Positions 1,561 through 25,541 of a stretch of DNA of 25,586 nt are shown in pieces (position 1 is the stretch's first letter; every line of letters starts with the position of its first letter). A program made the translations under genes and the position numbers. The stretch comes from a virus. The notes beneath the pieces are model-generated. The model was not told the origin of the DNA, did no database searches, and was given only the letters and a program-made list of their open reading frames with translations. The stretch is from positions 1 to 25,586 of IMG/VR virus record IMGVR_UViG_3300011114_000122; one strand, written 5' to 3'.

Positions 1561-1855
1561 TTGTTATCTCCTTGATGTCGTGGTCTGCGTTAGTGCAATC
1601 CCATAGATAAGTATCTGAATTTAATGTGGCTTCATCGTGGCACTTAGGCGAGTGAAATCCTGTGCCATCAAATGTGTAGCCAATACCTGCATAGTTTTTA
1701 TGTAGCGGAGTACCGCCAAGAGTATGAACTCCTGCGTGTGTGTTGTAGGAAGTCTGCACCCAAGTACCGCCAATTGCATCTTCACACCAAGCCTTTGAGT
1801 GAGCAACAATAACTTGAGTTACTGTTCCATTTTCTATCTGAGCGTAATGACTCAT
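1544..1855 (-). CDS. Hypothetical phage protein near fibre genes (103 aa)
   Basis: A 103-residue protein from the ATG at 1855, preceded by the strong site AAGGAGATAAT. It starts MSHYAQIENGTVTQVIVA and contains GGTWVQTSYNTHAGVH, NYAGIGYTFDGTGFH and TYLWDCTNADHD. This pattern (ENGxVTQVIVA ... GTWxQTSYNT ... KNYAGIGYTYD) recurs in small proteins of marine cyanophages and pelagiphages. They lie beside the tail-fibre genes and their role is unknown; that match is from memory. The compact, aromatic-rich sequence suggests a small beta domain, possibly a fibre accessory part. It follows the glycine-rich fibre gene by nine bases and overlaps the next gene. Confidence 0.8.
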   Translation of the reverse strand: MSHYAQIENGTVTQVIVAHSKAWCEDAIGGTWVQTSYNTHAGVHTLGGTPLHKNYAGIGYTFDGTGFHSPKCHDEATLNSDTYLWDCTNADHDIKEITNDSSN

Positions 1856-1864
1856 ATTATCTCC

Positions 1865-3229
1865 TTAGACCGCATATCTGACGACAACGATTCCTGAACC
1901 GCCAGCACCACCTGCTAAATACGCGCCGCCTTCGCTGGCTCCACCGCCACCTGAACCTAAATTTGCAGTGCCACTAACACCAGCACCGCCACCAGAAGTT
2001 CCAGCATTTCCACCACCGCCTGTGCCGCCTGTTCCGACAGTTCCACCGTAAAAAGTTCCACCACCACCGCCACCAGCATAAGTAACACTTGACCCCGTTA
2101 TGGAAGTCGCAACGCCATTTCCACCATTTCCACCTGTGGAATCTGAGCCATTTCCACCAACCGCACCTGCGCCGCCGCCAGCCGATTGCCCGTAATTTGG
2201 AGCGTTTGAGGCAAAGTAACCGCCGTTATATCCTTGTCCTGAAGTTCCTGTTGCCGCGCCTGTAACTCTACCGCCACCGCCAGAGCCACCGTTTAATGCT
2301 GCGTAAGTACCTCTGGAACCGCCGCCGCCGCCACCCGTAGAAGTGATTGTTGAAAATACTGAATTGTTCCCACTTGTTCCTTGAACCGCACTAGCGCCAG
2401 CCGTTCCACCTGCTCCACCTGCTCCGACTGTTACTGTGTATGCAGTCGCTGCTAAAGATAAAGCAGATTCAAGAGAGCCACCACCACCTGTTGCCGTGAC
2501 GGTGCATCTAAGACCACCTGCACCACCACCACCACCATAAGCGTTACCACCGCCACCCCCACCTGCAACTACTAAGTAGTCAGCAGTCAAAGCCTTGAGT
2601 GGAGTGAATGTGCCTGAGTACTTAAATGTGTGGTACCAATAAGTACCATCGGTAGTAATTACATCGCCACCTGTTGCAGAAGGTACAGAAGTATTTTGGG
2701 TGGATGTGCTAGATGATATTCCGTATAGGGAGAAGGTTGAGTATTGGACAAAAGAACCACTACCGCCAGATAAAGATAAAGAAGTTATTGCAGCAGTACT
2801 TGACCATAATCCAGCAACCATTTTCATATTTATAGCAGCAGCATTTGTTTCTGGGCAATGCTCCATTGATATAGATTTGTAATTTGCAGAAGCATAATTT
2901 GGAATATAGATTTCGCCATTAGAAAATACACTTGCTGTTGCAGTAGAACCATCTATTTGCACTCCCGCTATGCCGTAACCTTCGGCAGAATCAGTAACAG
3001 AAACAGCAGCACTTCCTGTTCCATATATCATTTTCCAAGAATAAATTGAAGCCGAACTTCCATTAAATTTTAAGTAGACTTCATCAGAACTATTTGCATA
3101 ATCACTTCTTGCACTCACCACAACCTTCAAATCAGTAAATGTCTGCGGGATATTAGAGAAGGTAACTGAAGCAGCACCAGCACTACCTACAGTCTGGCGG
3201 GAGATAAGGTTATTAGTTGTAATCGCCAT
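1865..3229 (-). CDS. Tail fibre/adhesin: beta-rich domain plus long glycine-rich tip
   Basis: A 454-residue protein in two parts. Residues 1-172 form a beta-rich domain also found in the two genes just upstream (VTFSNIPQTFTDLKV near residue 22 and STAAITSLSLSGG ... STFSLYGI near 144-171). After the linker GGDVITTDGTYWYHTF comes ADYLVVAGG at about 216. Residues 223-446 are then dominated by runs of glycine and end SGIVVVRYAV. The tail is a classic phage glycine-rich domain. Related tips in T-even-type gp38 adhesins form a sandwich of polyglycine helices whose loops bind receptors. It is therefore a good candidate for the distal receptor-binding tip. The start lies three bases after the upstream stop (TAA, then CTAATG). 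Assignment as a fibre is strong; the target is unknown. Confidence 0.85.
   Translation of the reverse strand: MAITTNNLISRQTVGSAGAASVTFSNIPQTFTDLKVVVSARSDYANSSDEVYLKFNGSSASIYSWKMIYGTGSAAVSVTDSAEGYGIAGVQIDGSTATASVFSNGEIYIPNYASANYKSISMEHCPETNAAAINMKMVAGLWSSTAAITSLSLSGGSGSFVQYSTFSLYGISSSTSTQNTSVPSATGGDVITTDGTYWYHTFKYSGTFTPLKALTADYLVVAGGGGGGNAYGGGGGAGGLRCTVTATGGGGSLESALSLAATAYTVTVGAGGAGGTAGASAVQGTSGNNSVFSTITSTGGGGGGSRGTYAALNGGSGGGGRVTGAATGTSGQGYNGGYFASNAPNYGQSAGGGAGAVGGNGSDSTGGNGGNGVATSITGSSVTYAGGGGGGTFYGGTVGTGGTGGGGNAGTSGGGAGVSGTANLGSGGGGASEGGAYLAGGAGGSGIVVVRYAV
1892..2563 (-). repeat. Glycine-rich coding repeat (adhesin tip)
   Basis: This stretch encodes residues 223-446 of the fibre and is built from imperfect GGxGG-type units interrupted by short variable segments (for example NAPNYGQSAGGG, SSVTYAGGGGGG). 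On the plus strand it appears as long runs of ccaccacc and ccgccgcc. Low-complexity codons of this kind make the region prone to slippage and recombination, a plausible route to receptor-range change. Confidence 0.85.
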
Positions 3230-15818: not shown

Positions 15819-18800
15819 TTATCCTAACTTCATAAAGATACTTTTAATAACGGGTTTTAATTTTGGTTCAGATTCAGAAAGTGACAAAAGATAGTTTTCC
15901 CATTTTTGTTTTTCTTCTGTTGAGGCTATTCCTTGGATATTTAACATATTATATTGGGACATAATCTCGCTATGTCTTTGATAATCACCCATCAACGCTT
16001 TAACAAGTTTTGCTTGTTCGTGTTGTGGTGGGTTACTTGATGAAAATATCTTAGTTAATTGATTATAGGCAGTTTGTGCATTTACCCTACCCTCATTACT
16101 TGTGTAATCAACATACCAAATTGGATATAAATTTTTCATTTTAGTCATAATCTGTGACCAACGGTCATTTTCTACTTGCTTAGAATATGAATCATAATTA
16201 GCCGAGGCTTGGTCAATGATAGCAATATGTTTTTTAATCTCAGGAGATATAAATTGGTCGCCTTGAGAGATATAAAACTGTTTAAGTAAATCTTTTGGAG
16301 CAAGATAACTTCTTAGGTGCATATTCATAATCTCATTGTAAACAGCACGATCAGATTCATTCTTAGCATTATCTTGTGGGATAAGATAAAATGCTCCAGT
16401 TGAAACACCAGATTTTGAATTAAACATTTCTTTATTATTGTTTATGTAATCAACTGTTTCTTGGATATAAGGATACTTAGCTCCAGGAACATTAGATGTT
16501 GTTTTTGCTACGGTATAAGATATAGCCTTGTTACCGTGAGTACCTAGAAACTCTAATAAAGCATCTGCATAATTGCCTTTTGATTTAACAAGTTTCCAAA
16601 ACTCATCACGGAATCCTGAATCTTCTTGAGATATCTGTGGAGCTAATGGTGATGTAAGATTTAGAAATGTTTTTACTGCTAAAATTGATCGAGCATTATT
16701 TTGAATTCTATTTATAAAATTTTGTCTGTCATATTCGTTAGAATCAGGTCCTGGAACCTGACCGTGATAATAGGCTGCCGCCAGTGCAGATGCCATAGCA
16801 TTGCCCATTTGGTTAGATAAATCTATTGGCGTAAAAGCAGCAAGGGCTGTTTTTGCCCAAGTAGCAGGAATTAAACTATCTATAACACCACGTTGAAATG
16901 ATATATCGCCTACTGTTTTATTAACAATTTCTTTTGTTGATGGAAACCAGTCAGAAATTAAGTTAGCGGTTACTGCAAAGATTGGAGAAACACCAGGCGT
17001 CTGCAATTCAGGAAGAACGCTTTTTAACGATACTAAAGAGCCGCGAGCTGTTATTGGCAATCCAGATACTATTGGGATATTGTAAGCTGCTAAGGCGCTT
17101 TGAACAGCTTTTCCAAATTCACCTACACCTGGAAGATAAATATATTTATTTCCATTTTCATCTGCTTGAACAAATCCTGGGTCATTTAATGCGTGTTCTG
17201 CTAATTGATAAAAACGCAAACCTCTTGAGAATAAAGGAGAAGCAATACTTGTATCCTTCAAAGTAGCATATGCTCTTTTTAAGGCTTGTTCTTGAGCAAA
17301 ATAAAATGGTAAAAAGTTACGAGCTAATTGCGAAAATTGGTTTCGCAAAGCAGTATTGTGAATTTGCGGTAGCATTGCATATGATGCTTGAGTTTGAGCA
17401 ATTCTAACTGCCTGACTATCTAACATTTTTTTAGCAATAACTTGTGGTGCCAATCTTGCATAAGCATCAGCAACGTGTATCATATACAAAGGTTCACGTG
17501 CTAATCCATTAACAATTGGGTCAATAACTTTCTTAAAACCTATATTAGTAATCTTCTCAATCAATCCCTTGCCTGGCACATATGGTTGTAATGCTGGTCC
17601 AGCAACTGCGGCTGGAACAGATTTCTTAAAATCTCTTACCATAGTAACTACTTGGTCAAAATCAGTGCTTTCGCCAGCAGCTATATTTTTTGCAAAAGAT
17701 TCTAAATAAGTACCATCTTTGCCAACAACCATACCAAGTAATGAATCTACTCGGTCTTGAGCAAAAGTGCGAAGTTCTCCGTTGGCAACAGCATCTTCCC
17801 AGCGAGTTAGGGTTCTAATTTCTTTATTGTATCCAGAATAAGTACCATTTGTTGCTTGAAGCATACGATCATATTCTTTGTCAACAAGTTCTTTTCGCAA
17901 AGCTAAAAAGTCTTTATGTTTAGCCATTTTAGTAATATCATCATCAATTTGAAATTTATTTATTGTGGTATATTTTTTTGATAAATCAGTTAAATCTGTT
18001 GCTATATTTTTATAGGTTGTTTCATTAGCAGCTTTGTTTAAGTTAGTAGCATATCTTGGAGCATAATGAATATCAGATGCTGAATATGTTGTATACTCCG
18101 GCAAATCTCTAAACATAGGGCTGTTCTTTTGAATTTGATAATAATAATGAGCTGCTTGATTCATCTGATATGAAGTAGCGGCATCGTATCCGTGACCAGT
18201 TTGTACCGCTTCCGAAAGAAACATTCCCTTATTTGCTAATACAATTTTAGTTGCAAGTTCAATTTGGTCATCTGGTAACATTTTTGCAGCAAATTTCAAA
18301 CCTCGTCGTTTAGCTTCTTGAAATGCTGGGAAACCTGCTTGCATTACATCGGGAGTAATTCCGTTATGAAGTCCAAGTGCAGTCATAGCCGCTGCAAAGA
18401 TATGGCTTGTTTCTTGTGGCATTAAATCATAGTCTGATTTTGCAACGGCAACAGTAAGTTTTGACTTAAAAGTATTTATTACACCAAAACGAGCAAATGT
18501 TGGTATCAATTCAGATGCTGCAATGCGTAACCCAAAACCCATAGTAGCAAGAGCAAGTGGCTTAAAAATTTTATTTGTATATCTTTTTGCAATAAATTCA
18601 TCTATCGGACCAATATATTTTGCAAACTTACCAGCGGCTCGCATTGCTTTTTTAATTTCATAATAATCTGGAATATCAAACATATCTCTTGCGTGACCGC
18701 TAACGATACCGCCAACTTTTGGACCTTGAGCAGTAATGTACTCACCAATGTTTTCACCAAGTACATTAGTTCCATAAATCTGTGTTCCAACTAATGGTTC

Positions 18801-20324
18801 ACTAATTTGGTTAATTTCATCCATAACATTTTTTACAAATACATTGTCATCTGGCAAACCAAGAGCTTTGAATGATTCTAAAATTGTATGGTTTTTAATA
18901 CTACGCGCTAAACCTAGATCATTTACCGCAACTGCTTCTGCGTATTTTCCTGCAATTTCTTTTGCAGCAGAATCACCTAAACCTATACGACCCATACGAT
19001 ATACAGTAGTTGCTGCATCTGGTGCGTTCCATCTAAATTTAGTTAATGATAATTTTGCAGTTTCGGCATCTACGCTATATGGCATATAACCAGAAAATGT
19101 TTTGTAAACATTTCCTAAACTTTTTTTAACTCCTAATTTTTTCCATTCTGGATTAAGTATTCTAACTCCAGCAGCAGTTGTTCCAATGAATTTAGGAATT
19201 GACGCATTGCGCAAAATGTCTACAACTTTTGAATCACCAAATTTAGCACGAAGCAATGTACGAGTAGGAAGCATTGCTTGACCGGCAAGAGTTCCTTGCA
19301 ATTCACCAAAGTATAATGATGTCTTAAAAAATTGATGTACTTCGTCAGCAGATTTCATAGCACCTAAACGACCCGCTGCTATTGTTCCAAGTTGTGGAAA
19401 CTTTTGAACAATCTCACCAGCAGTAGATTTTGCTATATCATCAAGCGCTCTATTGTAAACTCTAGCAGATGAATTAAATATGCCACTGCCAGCACGAACC
19501 ATATCTATTTGGTCAGATGTAACAGCAAGACGGGAACGTGAAATAATAAAATCTCTAACGCCAGGAACTGTATCAAGAATTGGATATTTAAGTTGTATTG
19601 CTCCAGCTTTATCTAATCCTAAAAATTTTCCAAACTTCATAAGTTGACCAAAACGACCAACAATCATTGTTGGATCCGTGTTAATATCAAATGCTAAATC
19701 AACAAAACCCGAAGCTGTTTTACCTTTGCCAGTACTTGTATTACGAAATGCTTTAGCGGTACCGTCTGCACCTAAAGCATCAGATGCTACAGCAAGTGCA
19801 TTGCTAAAATCTCTACCTGCAGAAACTGTGTAATTATCATTATTACTTTTTGCATATGAATCTGAATAAGTATTTTTCCAAGGACCAACAGTTGAAAGTT
19901 TGCGTAAGGCTACTCCAGCAGCATCAATACCAGCTATTGCTCCAATGGGACCACCCAAGAAAGCTCCACCAACGCCACCGCCAATAACACCAAGTGTTAC
20001 AGCAAATCCAGGCAAAAATCCGTGATCTACATATACTGAATGAGTAAATTTGTAATCACGTTGAATTTCTTTAAGACCTTTGCCTAACCATTCTAAAGGG
20101 GCTAAAGCGGTATTACCTAGTTTATTCCAAAATTTATCAGTACCATTATCTTGACTATGGTCACTTATGGCATCTTGAACAGCAATGCCACGTGTAGCAT
20201 AAGATACAATTGGTGCAACAACTTTTGGTTGTCCACTATTGTATACATCGCTTGCTAAACCAGGATTACGTGCTAGGTCGGGAGTTACCCAATCATCCCA
20301 AAATGAGCTTTTAGTATCTCCCAA
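15819..20324 (-). CDS. Very large presumed internal virion/ejection protein (1501 aa)
   Basis: At 1501 residues this is the largest gene. It starts with TTG at 20324 (GGDT-like start, TTG GGA GAT), with AAGGA eight bases upstream and no usable ATG nearby. A hydrophobic, glycine-rich stretch lies at residues 102-140 (FLPGFAVTLGVIGGGVGGAF, then GGPIGAIAGIDAAGVAL), a candidate membrane-inserting segment. The rest is long and mostly helical, with recognisable segments such as RNFLPFYFAQEQALKRAY and KYIYLPGVGEFGKAV in the C-terminal half. Large proteins beside the portal in podoviruses (for example T7 gp15/gp16, or the N4 virion polymerase position) are injected with DNA and form a conduit. I see no convincing polymerase, protease or lysozyme motif, so the ejection role is an inference from size, position and hydrophobic segment. 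Confidence 0.7.
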   Translation of the reverse strand: MGDTKSSFWDDWVTPDLARNPGLASDVYNSGQPKVVAPIVSYATRGIAVQDAISDHSQDNGTDKFWNKLGNTALAPLEWLGKGLKEIQRDYKFTHSVYVDHGFLPGFAVTLGVIGGGVGGAFLGGPIGAIAGIDAAGVALRKLSTVGPWKNTYSDSYAKSNNDNYTVSAGRDFSNALAVASDALGADGTAKAFRNTSTGKGKTASGFVDLAFDINTDPTMIVGRFGQLMKFGKFLGLDKAGAIQLKYPILDTVPGVRDFIISRSRLAVTSDQIDMVRAGSGIFNSSARVYNRALDDIAKSTAGEIVQKFPQLGTIAAGRLGAMKSADEVHQFFKTSLYFGELQGTLAGQAMLPTRTLLRAKFGDSKVVDILRNASIPKFIGTTAAGVRILNPEWKKLGVKKSLGNVYKTFSGYMPYSVDAETAKLSLTKFRWNAPDAATTVYRMGRIGLGDSAAKEIAGKYAEAVAVNDLGLARSIKNHTILESFKALGLPDDNVFVKNVMDEINQISEPLVGTQIYGTNVLGENIGEYITAQGPKVGGIVSGHARDMFDIPDYYEIKKAMRAAGKFAKYIGPIDEFIAKRYTNKIFKPLALATMGFGLRIAASELIPTFARFGVINTFKSKLTVAVAKSDYDLMPQETSHIFAAAMTALGLHNGITPDVMQAGFPAFQEAKRRGLKFAAKMLPDDQIELATKIVLANKGMFLSEAVQTGHGYDAATSYQMNQAAHYYYQIQKNSPMFRDLPEYTTYSASDIHYAPRYATNLNKAANETTYKNIATDLTDLSKKYTTINKFQIDDDITKMAKHKDFLALRKELVDKEYDRMLQATNGTYSGYNKEIRTLTRWEDAVANGELRTFAQDRVDSLLGMVVGKDGTYLESFAKNIAAGESTDFDQVVTMVRDFKKSVPAAVAGPALQPYVPGKGLIEKITNIGFKKVIDPIVNGLAREPLYMIHVADAYARLAPQVIAKKMLDSQAVRIAQTQASYAMLPQIHNTALRNQFSQLARNFLPFYFAQEQALKRAYATLKDTSIASPLFSRGLRFYQLAEHALNDPGFVQADENGNKYIYLPGVGEFGKAVQSALAAYNIPIVSGLPITARGSLVSLKSVLPELQTPGVSPIFAVTANLISDWFPSTKEIVNKTVGDISFQRGVIDSLIPATWAKTALAAFTPIDLSNQMGNAMASALAAAYYHGQVPGPDSNEYDRQNFINRIQNNARSILAVKTFLNLTSPLAPQISQEDSGFRDEFWKLVKSKGNYADALLEFLGTHGNKAISYTVAKTTSNVPGAKYPYIQETVDYINNNKEMFNSKSGVSTGAFYLIPQDNAKNESDRAVYNEIMNMHLRSYLAPKDLLKQFYISQGDQFISPEIKKHIAIIDQASANYDSYSKQVENDRWSQIMTKMKNLYPIWYVDYTSNEGRVNAQTAYNQLTKIFSSSNPPQHEQAKLVKALMGDYQRHSEIMSQYNMLNIQGIASTEEKQKWENYLLSLSESEPKLKPVIKSIFMKLG

Positions 20325-23031: not shown

Positions 23032-24894
23032 TTAGATGAATGTACGTTCTTGTTCCGCGAACAGTTCATCGAGATTGATTACTGTGCGTTTTGCGCGTTC
23101 GCTGCGCGACAAAAATGGATTCTTCATATGGTGTACTGCGTGGATACCTTGGTTAAGCATCTCTCGCGCTCTGATCTCACAAAACCATAGAGCCATTACC
23201 ATATCGGTCTTACCCTTAGTGGTGGGTGACCAAGTGATAAGTTGTTCTATTAAAGCCTTTATGTTTTCGGTTTGATCCGAAGGAAGGTGTATTAGATTAT
23301 CTCTGTGGTGCTTACCGTCGGCTTGCTTAGTGCCAAAGAGGGTAGACATAGAAGCTACACCAAAACCTGAATCCCATTTATTAGAACCGGTATGGTGTTC
23401 TTTAAGTAGTACACCTTTAGAAGCAAGTTGCTGACGGATACCTTCATCTTGAGTTAAGAAAGATTGAAAGGCGTTCTTCTCCACAACCCACTCACTAGGA
23501 GCATAGAGGTTGGTCCAGTCAAAGATTAACTGCCTAATAGCAGCAGGGGTGGGTCTAGTAATTTTAATAGCATCTACAATGTAACGCTTATGTGATATAC
23601 GGTCTACCGCGTAACAGATAGCGGCGGTATCGCCAACCATTGCTGGGTCTAGCCCACAGACAATAGAAAAACCATTCATATCTTTAGGGTGACCAGGGTG
23701 ACCTGGAACTAATCTGCCAGACTTACGCATACCATCAATAGAGCCACGAACAGATACTGGGTCAAAGATTGCATCGTCAGAGATATCTTGTTGCTGGTAA
23801 ATCAAAGCCCAAGTAGAGGGATCCATAGATTGTCGTTCGTTGTAAAGGTTACGTCCGGACCATCTAGGATAGAGTCCAGTTTCTGGGTTCTTATCTTCTT
23901 CCTTCTGCCCATCAAAGGGTTGGTCAGATTCTGCCCAGAGAGTTAACCACTTATCAGGGTCCTCATCTGTTTCAAGCAAAGCTGGCATAGCCAGATAAGT
24001 CCAAGGAACTAAGCCACCTGGGTATCTATCAGGGTTACGCAACTCTTTATAGAGGTCTACTGCGCTAACTCTAGTACCAATAATGATTAACTTCCCCGTA
24101 GGGTTAAGACGAGAACGCACATCTTGGGTAAGCCACTTAATCTGTCGTTCAAAATCATTAGCATTAGATAGGGTTACAGCATCATCAACTATAATCATAT
24201 CGGCTCGTTTACCGTAAATCTGACCACCGATACCAACAGCTTCTATATTGGGGTCTTTCTCACTAGACTCACGCAATTCATCACCAAAGGTGATTCGAGT
24301 TGCTTGCCACGATGCTGACTTAGAATTGAACCCTACGCCAGCAGCGTACGCTTGTTGTAAGGTTTCATACATAGGATGTGTAAGGCGCTGCTTTATGGCG
24401 TAGAGAAAGTCAGATGCTAGGCGCTGGGTCTGAGATACTATCAAGATTCTAAAGTTAGGGTTTTGACATATGAGCCAAGTCACATAGTCTATAGTGATAG
24501 TAATAGACTTTGCGTGGTTGGGCGGTATGTTCAAAAGAATACGGTTACTAGCTATACCTTTTTCAAACTTCATAGCTGGGTGGAGCCAAGATGGATCTCT
24601 ACCTTCAATTACATCAACTAGATTAGTTTGGTGTGGGAAGGTCTGGCTATGTAAGAATCTTTGACGGAACTCTGCAAAGTCAATATCGTGGACATCGCCG
24701 GAGGCGAATACCTTAGTTCTAAGTCCTAGCCTAGTTCGATCTACTTTGTCAGCAAATGCTTTATCAGAGCGACGGTAGTACTCATAAGTCTTGAGAGTTT
24801 TGCCGGCTTCGCTGCAAGCCTTCTCAACGGTAACACCTTCAGCTACGCAAGTAAGAATAATCCTCTTGGCGATATCGGCTGAGTTTTCAGACAC
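23032..24894 (-). CDS. terL: Large terminase subunit (packaging ATPase-nuclease)
   Basis: A 620-residue protein, first gene of the operon. The ATPase domain shows a Walker A-like IPPNHAKS at 123-130, Walker B DMIIVDD at 232-238 and the coupling-like LIIIGTR at 269-275. The RNase H-like nuclease has likely metal ligands D416 (CGLDPA), E472 (VVEKNA) and D564 (GKTDMVMA). Residues 1-55 (IAKRIILTCVAEGVTVEKAC, then KTLKTYEYYRRSD) look like a helix-turn-helix similar to those of small terminases. The length fits a normal large terminase plus this extra N-terminal part. Start is GTG at 24894, with GAGGAAA upstream. It should drive DNA into proheads through the portal. Confidence 0.93.
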   Translation of the reverse strand: MSENSADIAKRIILTCVAEGVTVEKACSEAGKTLKTYEYYRRSDKAFADKVDRTRLGLRTKVFASGDVHDIDFAEFRQRFLHSQTFPHQTNLVDVIEGRDPSWLHPAMKFEKGIASNRILLNIPPNHAKSITITIDYVTWLICQNPNFRILIVSQTQRLASDFLYAIKQRLTHPMYETLQQAYAAGVGFNSKSASWQATRITFGDELRESSEKDPNIEAVGIGGQIYGKRADMIIVDDAVTLSNANDFERQIKWLTQDVRSRLNPTGKLIIIGTRVSAVDLYKELRNPDRYPGGLVPWTYLAMPALLETDEDPDKWLTLWAESDQPFDGQKEEDKNPETGLYPRWSGRNLYNERQSMDPSTWALIYQQQDISDDAIFDPVSVRGSIDGMRKSGRLVPGHPGHPKDMNGFSIVCGLDPAMVGDTAAICYAVDRISHKRYIVDAIKITRPTPAAIRQLIFDWTNLYAPSEWVVEKNAFQSFLTQDEGIRQQLASKGVLLKEHHTGSNKWDSGFGVASMSTLFGTKQADGKHHRDNLIHLPSDQTENIKALIEQLITWSPTTKGKTDMVMALWFCEIRAREMLNQGIHAVHHMKNPFLSRSERAKRTVINLDELFAEQERTFI

Positions 24895-25200: not shown

Positions 25201-25216
25201 TGTGACCAACCTCACA
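25201..25216. promoter_or_regulatory. Perfect CRP/GlxR-type palindrome TGTGA-N6-TCACA
   Basis: The site matches exactly the core recognised by Crp/Fnr-family activators, including actinobacterial GlxR (TGTGA-N6-TCACA). It sits about 15 bases upstream of the candidate -35 and directly beside a tandem repeat. Binding is not proven. Confidence 0.45.
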
Positions 25217-25220
25217 GGAT

Positions 25221-25250
25221 ATAATAGGACAAAATAGGACAAAGTAGGAC
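25221..25250. repeat. Three 10-base tandem repeats (xxAxTAGGAC)
   Basis: The units ATAATAGGAC, AAAATAGGAC and AAAGTAGGAC lie head to tail with exactly one DNA turn per unit, so bound proteins would face the same side. This is typical of iterons or cooperative operator sites. Confidence 0.75.
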
Positions 25251-25338
25251 AACAGTAGCCCCCTTTAACTTTATCAAAAATATCTATTTGGGGAGTACCG
25301 CGCCCACCCTGCATTTATTTAACACACGGGGGTCGTTT

Positions 25339-25396: not shown

Positions 25397-25482
25397 GTCT
25401 GTTGTTAATTTTGCGAGGGCTTGCTCCACTTTCGGCAGGGTATCCCTCACCTATTCGCCCCTATATTTAATGATTACCGGAG

Positions 25483-25541
25483 CCGCTAACCGTTAGCCCT
25501 AACCCTTAACCCTTAGCCTTATCCCTATCCCTTAGCCCTAG
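25483..25541. repeat. Telomere-like array of 6-7 base CCCTWA units
   Basis: Nine successive units read CCGCTAA, CCGTTAG, CCCTAA, CCCTTAA, CCCTTAG, CCTTAT, CCCTAT, CCCTTAG, CCCTAG. On the minus strand these are G-runs separated by 3-4 bases (TTAGGG-like), able to form G-quadruplexes. Confidence 0.8.

Follow-up and report, generated by a model that had tools for sequence, protein, structure and literature searches.

The locus described here raises the question of why a phage should carry a run of telomere-like words beside its packaging genes, and of what these words might do. The window, which is the whole stretch analysed and consists of a virus record of 25,586 bases cut at both ends, holds on its plus strand an array of nine degenerate 6-7 nt words at 25483..25541, with a TANCC core on that strand and GGNTA on the minus strand. 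Read in order along the minus strand, the units are GGCTAG, GGCTAAG, GGATAG, GGATAA, GGCTAAG, GGTTAAG, GGTTAG, GGCTAAC and GGTTAGC, and Tandem Repeats Finder resolves them into a period of 7 (25487-25539, 8 copies) and a period of 13 (25481-25540, 4.5 copies). The preliminary description had reported nine such units in a row starting about 590 bases from the terminase gene, and both statements agree with our analysis: nine units occupy about 60 bp, and 589 bp separate the TerL start codon from the start of the array. Chance, which that description had raised as a possible source of the units, is argued against by 2000 dinucleotide-preserving shuffles, in which the nine GGNTA words found inside 64 nt compare with a maximum of 5 for the intergenic region and 6 for the nearest 187 nt (P <= 0.0005), and no further GGNTA cluster of this kind occurs elsewhere in the window. 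The array is no assembly artefact, because a contig from a different metagenome (L084), whose sequence extends beyond the window's end, carries it letter for letter. It is likewise identical in L082 and L083, four more haplotypes carry a unit-shuffled version, and an exact search with the array core returned matches confined to this same clade. An Rfam scan of the window gave zero hits. A coding role is ruled out by clade indels of 6, 7, 14 and 20 nt that break any reading frame, and a GGAGC..GCTCC inverted repeat flanking the array was dropped as a structural candidate, the minus-strand DNA folding no more stably than shuffles (z 0.48).

The genomic setting of the array is that of a divergent junction. 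The large terminase subunit gene (TerL; PHROG 38, E 9e-65) occupies 23032..24894 on the minus strand, and contig L002, whose TerL is 100% identical, extends beyond the window there, first through a promoter-like TTGACA-N16-TATAAC and then through genes in the opposite direction, which together place the array between TerL and the early genes, in a region flanked by divergent reading directions. The window's end was dropped as a possible genome end since three other contigs read through it; the window stops at a spot that in L002 corresponds to a GGATAAGAGCTG duplication. The virus appears to be freshwater actinophage-like, a label that rests on the relatives of its TerL. Elsewhere in these genomes, the structural gene block of the window encodes a 1501-aa protein (15819-20324, minus strand) with no PHROG or Pfam match, and the early region of L002 encodes a protein (1707-2312, minus strand) whose weak similarity to the DNA polymerase III beta clamp falls short of the Pfam cut-off (E 0.001-0.003).

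A position for the genome end is suggested by comparison with cultured phages. The TerL of the window shares 43-44% identity over 98% with those of the Streptomyces cluster BF podoviruses, and upstream of the gene lies a two-part element that we take to be homologous to the right terminal-repeat border of these phages. Its first half is GACCCCCGTGTGTTAA at 25319..25334 on the minus strand; its second half, ACTCCCC at 25290..25296 on the same strand, corresponds to AGTCCCC following ...GTG, with the putative cut between the two. The general form is GACCC..GTTAA-22/23 nt-A[GC]TCCCC, with GACCCCCGTGTGTTAA, 22 nt and ACTCCCC in the window. Romero, WRightOn and Stella, which belong to three genera of cluster BF and whose records show identical sequence at both ends, have terminal repeats of 264, 264 and 263 bp that all share the right border GACCCGGGGGTTGTTAA-N(about 23; 23 nt in Romero)-AGTCCC, and announcements of cluster BF phages give repeats of 253 and 265 bp with ends read by sequencing (PMC9753666, PMC13097060). 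Under a loose pattern, and with three landmarks corrected, a recognisable border element was found upstream of TerL in about 74 of the 80 loci examined. The relatedness of TerL and the common border element together lead us to predict a terminase cut, and hence a genome end at the border of a terminal repeat, at 25296/25297; the array spans the stretch 186 to 244 bp from this predicted end. The record of Abafar shows a 396-bp repeat that overruns the common border and was treated as a probable record artefact. Planktophila phage E7 (OX376640) was rejected as a source of the end, its record being without a terminal repeat; a similar element, GACCCCAGAGTGTTTAA-N22-ACACTCACCC (read by eye), lies 5' of its TerL. 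Between border and TerL, L003 and L028 have an additional small lysine-rich gene and L079 a tRNA-like stretch. As a predictor of genome ends in a widespread uncultured phage group, the border element could allow termini to be placed in existing contigs.

The far border of the terminal repeat is less sharply marked. The block GGATACCCTGCCGAAAGTGGAGCAAGCCCTC at 25415..25446 on the minus strand, recognisable in many relatives, is a candidate because the contig starts of relatives pile up at a matching distance: 12 of 123 contigs start 120-171 bp upstream of the border, compared with about 0.6 expected from the density elsewhere. Four or five contigs end 0-77 bp past the border, with L210, L211 and L202 within about 18 bp. 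This pile-up of contig ends, the indirect evidence for terminal repeats in the freshwater contigs, fits a repeat shorter than that of the BF phages, and assemblies that break at strain variation and overlap by one assembler k-mer can equally produce it. No common cut motif could be named at the far border. If the repeat is about 263 bp long, as in BF, the array would form its outer part, and with a shorter repeat it would lie just outside.

The position and orientation of the array are conserved well beyond its own clade. In 94 non-redundant relatives outside the clade, whose zones were compared without confident alignment, we counted 274 GGNTA words compared with 144+/-10 in shuffles that preserve dinucleotides and ignore kinship, which makes the word counts non-independent events. 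Gaps of 6/7 nt between words number 33 against 3.0 in shuffles; spacings of 6, 7 and 8 nt occur 17, 16 and 17 times against about 1.5 each, and spacings of 4, 5 and 9 nt never. The density of the words is highest about 170-225 bp upstream of the border, where it reaches 1.5 per 50 nt, compared with about 0.2 per 50 nt outside the peak and 0.08 on the opposite strand. A large environmental family in which the sequence is scrambled but a comparable array persists on one strand and at a similar distance amounts to a natural mutagenesis experiment.

We lean slightly towards reading the array as one resembling the SRL of T7, placed at the concatemer junction in the genome-end region of a virus with direct terminal repeats. 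The packaging start or genome end that the preliminary description had proposed near the array gains partial support from the BF-homologous border element 186 bp away, and its telomere-like or quadruplex reading gains none. The terminal repeat would flank the array on one side and the early promoter on the other, or the array would lie in the far edge of the repeat, with its words kept on a fixed strand at a roughly constant distance (about 160-310 bp) from the packaging cut. It is probably bound by protein during replication, maturation or packaging. Such a protein, plausibly the terminase or a replication or maturation factor, would read the words in double-stranded DNA and, once bound, could gather at the junction and aid both the cutting of concatemers and the duplication of the terminal repeat. 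The precise place of the cut, the length of the repeat, the identity of the bound protein and the role of the array are inferences.

The strongest competing explanation, which we nonetheless regard as unlikely, is that the array has no packaging role and is an operator or origin array, offering sites to a repressor or activator of the early promoter or to a replication initiator. Consistent with this, the array lies about 155 bp upstream of the early promoter of L002, whose TTGACA-N16-TATAAC is sigma-70-like, and 9-nt CAGACAA-type repeats sit between array and border. Perfect DnaA boxes (TTATCCACA), often paired, are present in 22 of 115 relatives (e.g. L063, L072, L061, L079), and 44 of the 46 boxes fall in a 100-bp strip 50-150 bp upstream of the border, adjoining the array zone, making a replication origin inside the predicted terminal repeat possible. 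However, perfect DnaA boxes are absent from the window, typical iterons are far less degenerate than these words, and the position of the array is tied to the border element with its strand fixed. Packaging and origin roles are compatible with each other.

Putative regulatory signals also mark the TerL side of the junction. A TGTGA-N6-TCACA palindrome at 25201..25216 (minus strand) directly follows a -10-like box in a promoter-like site, and this sequence is the consensus of CRP/GlxR-type regulators. Of its 10 letters, 9-10 match in 71 of the 74 freshwater relatives, where the best shuffled sites mostly reach 6-7, and all 10 match in three Streptomyces BF phages, in which the offset is almost identical, suggesting that the late promoter may be wired to a CRP-type regulator of the host. 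Three 10-nt AATAGGACAA repeats occupy 25223-25252, between border and TerL.

Improbable to a greater degree is the explanation that the array is fast-evolving filler, produced as units slip and are exchanged within a strip of G-rich non-coding DNA whose words are under no selection. The close relatives do gain and lose whole units, as reflected in the clade indels, and they differ in unit number and order; the conserved unit count that the preliminary description proposed to look for is not found, and conservation of position, strand and core is. Yet the variation is unevenly distributed, as the spacer letters change and the GG and TA of the core are kept: core positions are invariant at 28 of 28 in the clade, whereas 6 of 21 other positions are variable (P 0.004 without an out-of-register haplotype, 0.015 with it). 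The agreement of otherwise unrelated sequences in the 94 relatives on words, spacing and strand at one place further argues against unselected filler.

Very improbable is a role for the array in shielding or marking a DNA end as a quadruplex or telomere-like structure: the G-rich strand has GGG runs and one loose motif (loops up to 12 nt) in the window, but the array contains no G3(N1-7) x4 motif, its G4Hunter maximum is 1.2, motifs of G-triplets in the zones of relatives are not enriched (2/115 compared with 5.5 in shuffles) and two-G motifs number 72 against 68, the GGG runs drop from 5 to 2 in close relatives that retain all 7 cores, and the predicted end is an ordinary terminal repeat. Four conserved G3 runs with short loops, by which a quadruplex element would be recognised, are absent. 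The quadruplex potential and telomere-like end proposed earlier are accordingly not supported, the G-triplets being lost in close relatives that keep the GG-TA core. The array is no telomere, and a quadruplex is improbable. It resembles eukaryotic TTAGGG repeats in the letters of some units, but these units are irregular, internal in concatemers and unconserved in their G-triplets.

Among known systems, the BF phages (Beephvirinae) match the window in their related TerL, in a border element with 22-23 nt spacing and TGTGA-N6-TCACA after it, and in a map where TerL points away from the junction on one side and an opposite-reading gene lies on the other. In contrast to the window, their repeats contain other degenerate arrays (period 10, 14, 20; ACATG/TGTCC type) and no CCTAA words.

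The array itself has its closest counterparts in T7-type phages, and the earlier view that it is unusual in a phage cannot be maintained: T7, T3, phiYeO3-12, SP6 and K1-5 have comparable arrays on the same strand at a similar distance. With positions counted from the genome end in the direction of the early genes, T7 has CCTAAAG in mostly 13-nt steps from 174 to 340, T3 has CCTAAAG words at 128-160 and 243-275, phiYeO3-12 has words at 128-292, SP6 has CCTTAGT-type words from 224, and K1-5 has them mainly from 286. In the same reading direction, and on the same strand as in T7, the window has CCCTAA(C)/CCCTTAG at 186-244 bp from the predicted end. Its zone contains 5 CCTWA words (P 0.017) and 11 TANCC words (P 0.003), with 0-1 on the reverse strand, CCTWA having been defined after the arrays had been seen. 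CCTWA words are absent from phiKMV, gh-1, phiEco32 and the cluster BF phages, which lack TANCC words too, and the array is not required for a terminal-repeat end because the first three, which are terminal-repeat phages, do without it; the nine comparison phages were picked as well-known terminal-repeat podoviruses, and the proportion among them is no survey.

The T7 arrays, which we take to be those named SRL and SRR, share with the arrays of T3, phiYeO3-12, SP6, K1-5 and the window tandem degenerate CCTWA(A/G) words on the strand that reads from the end to the early genes. In the T7-type phages the arrays stand 130-350 bp from the end, close to or within the terminal repeat, and precede the early promoters. 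The window array likewise consists of tandem degenerate short words, which resemble CCTAAAG on the strand leading into the early genes, and lies on the early-gene side of the homology-predicted border, 186 bp from it. A period of 12-13 is common to both, whereas the window words stand 6-7 nt apart rather than about 13 and have the core TANCC. A search beyond the repeat at the opposite end returned no second, SRR-like array, and the words show no peak on the border's TerL side; we therefore describe the array as working like an SRL array, with moderate confidence and by analogy, and do not file it as a member; both genome ends would carry it only if it lies inside the repeat. The similarity to the T7 words may be coincidence. 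To our knowledge, the function of the T7 short-repeat arrays, and the way in which terminal-repeat phages duplicate and cut their ends, are unsettled. It is a tentative possibility that CC(C)TWA arrays with a constant strand and a constant distance to the packaging end had separate origins, or are anciently shared, in proteobacterial podoviruses (the T7 and SP6 groups) and freshwater actinophage-related phages. In either case they would point to one common function in the making of terminal repeats, which the roughly one hundred divergent versions of the freshwater family that are already public would make readable by comparison.
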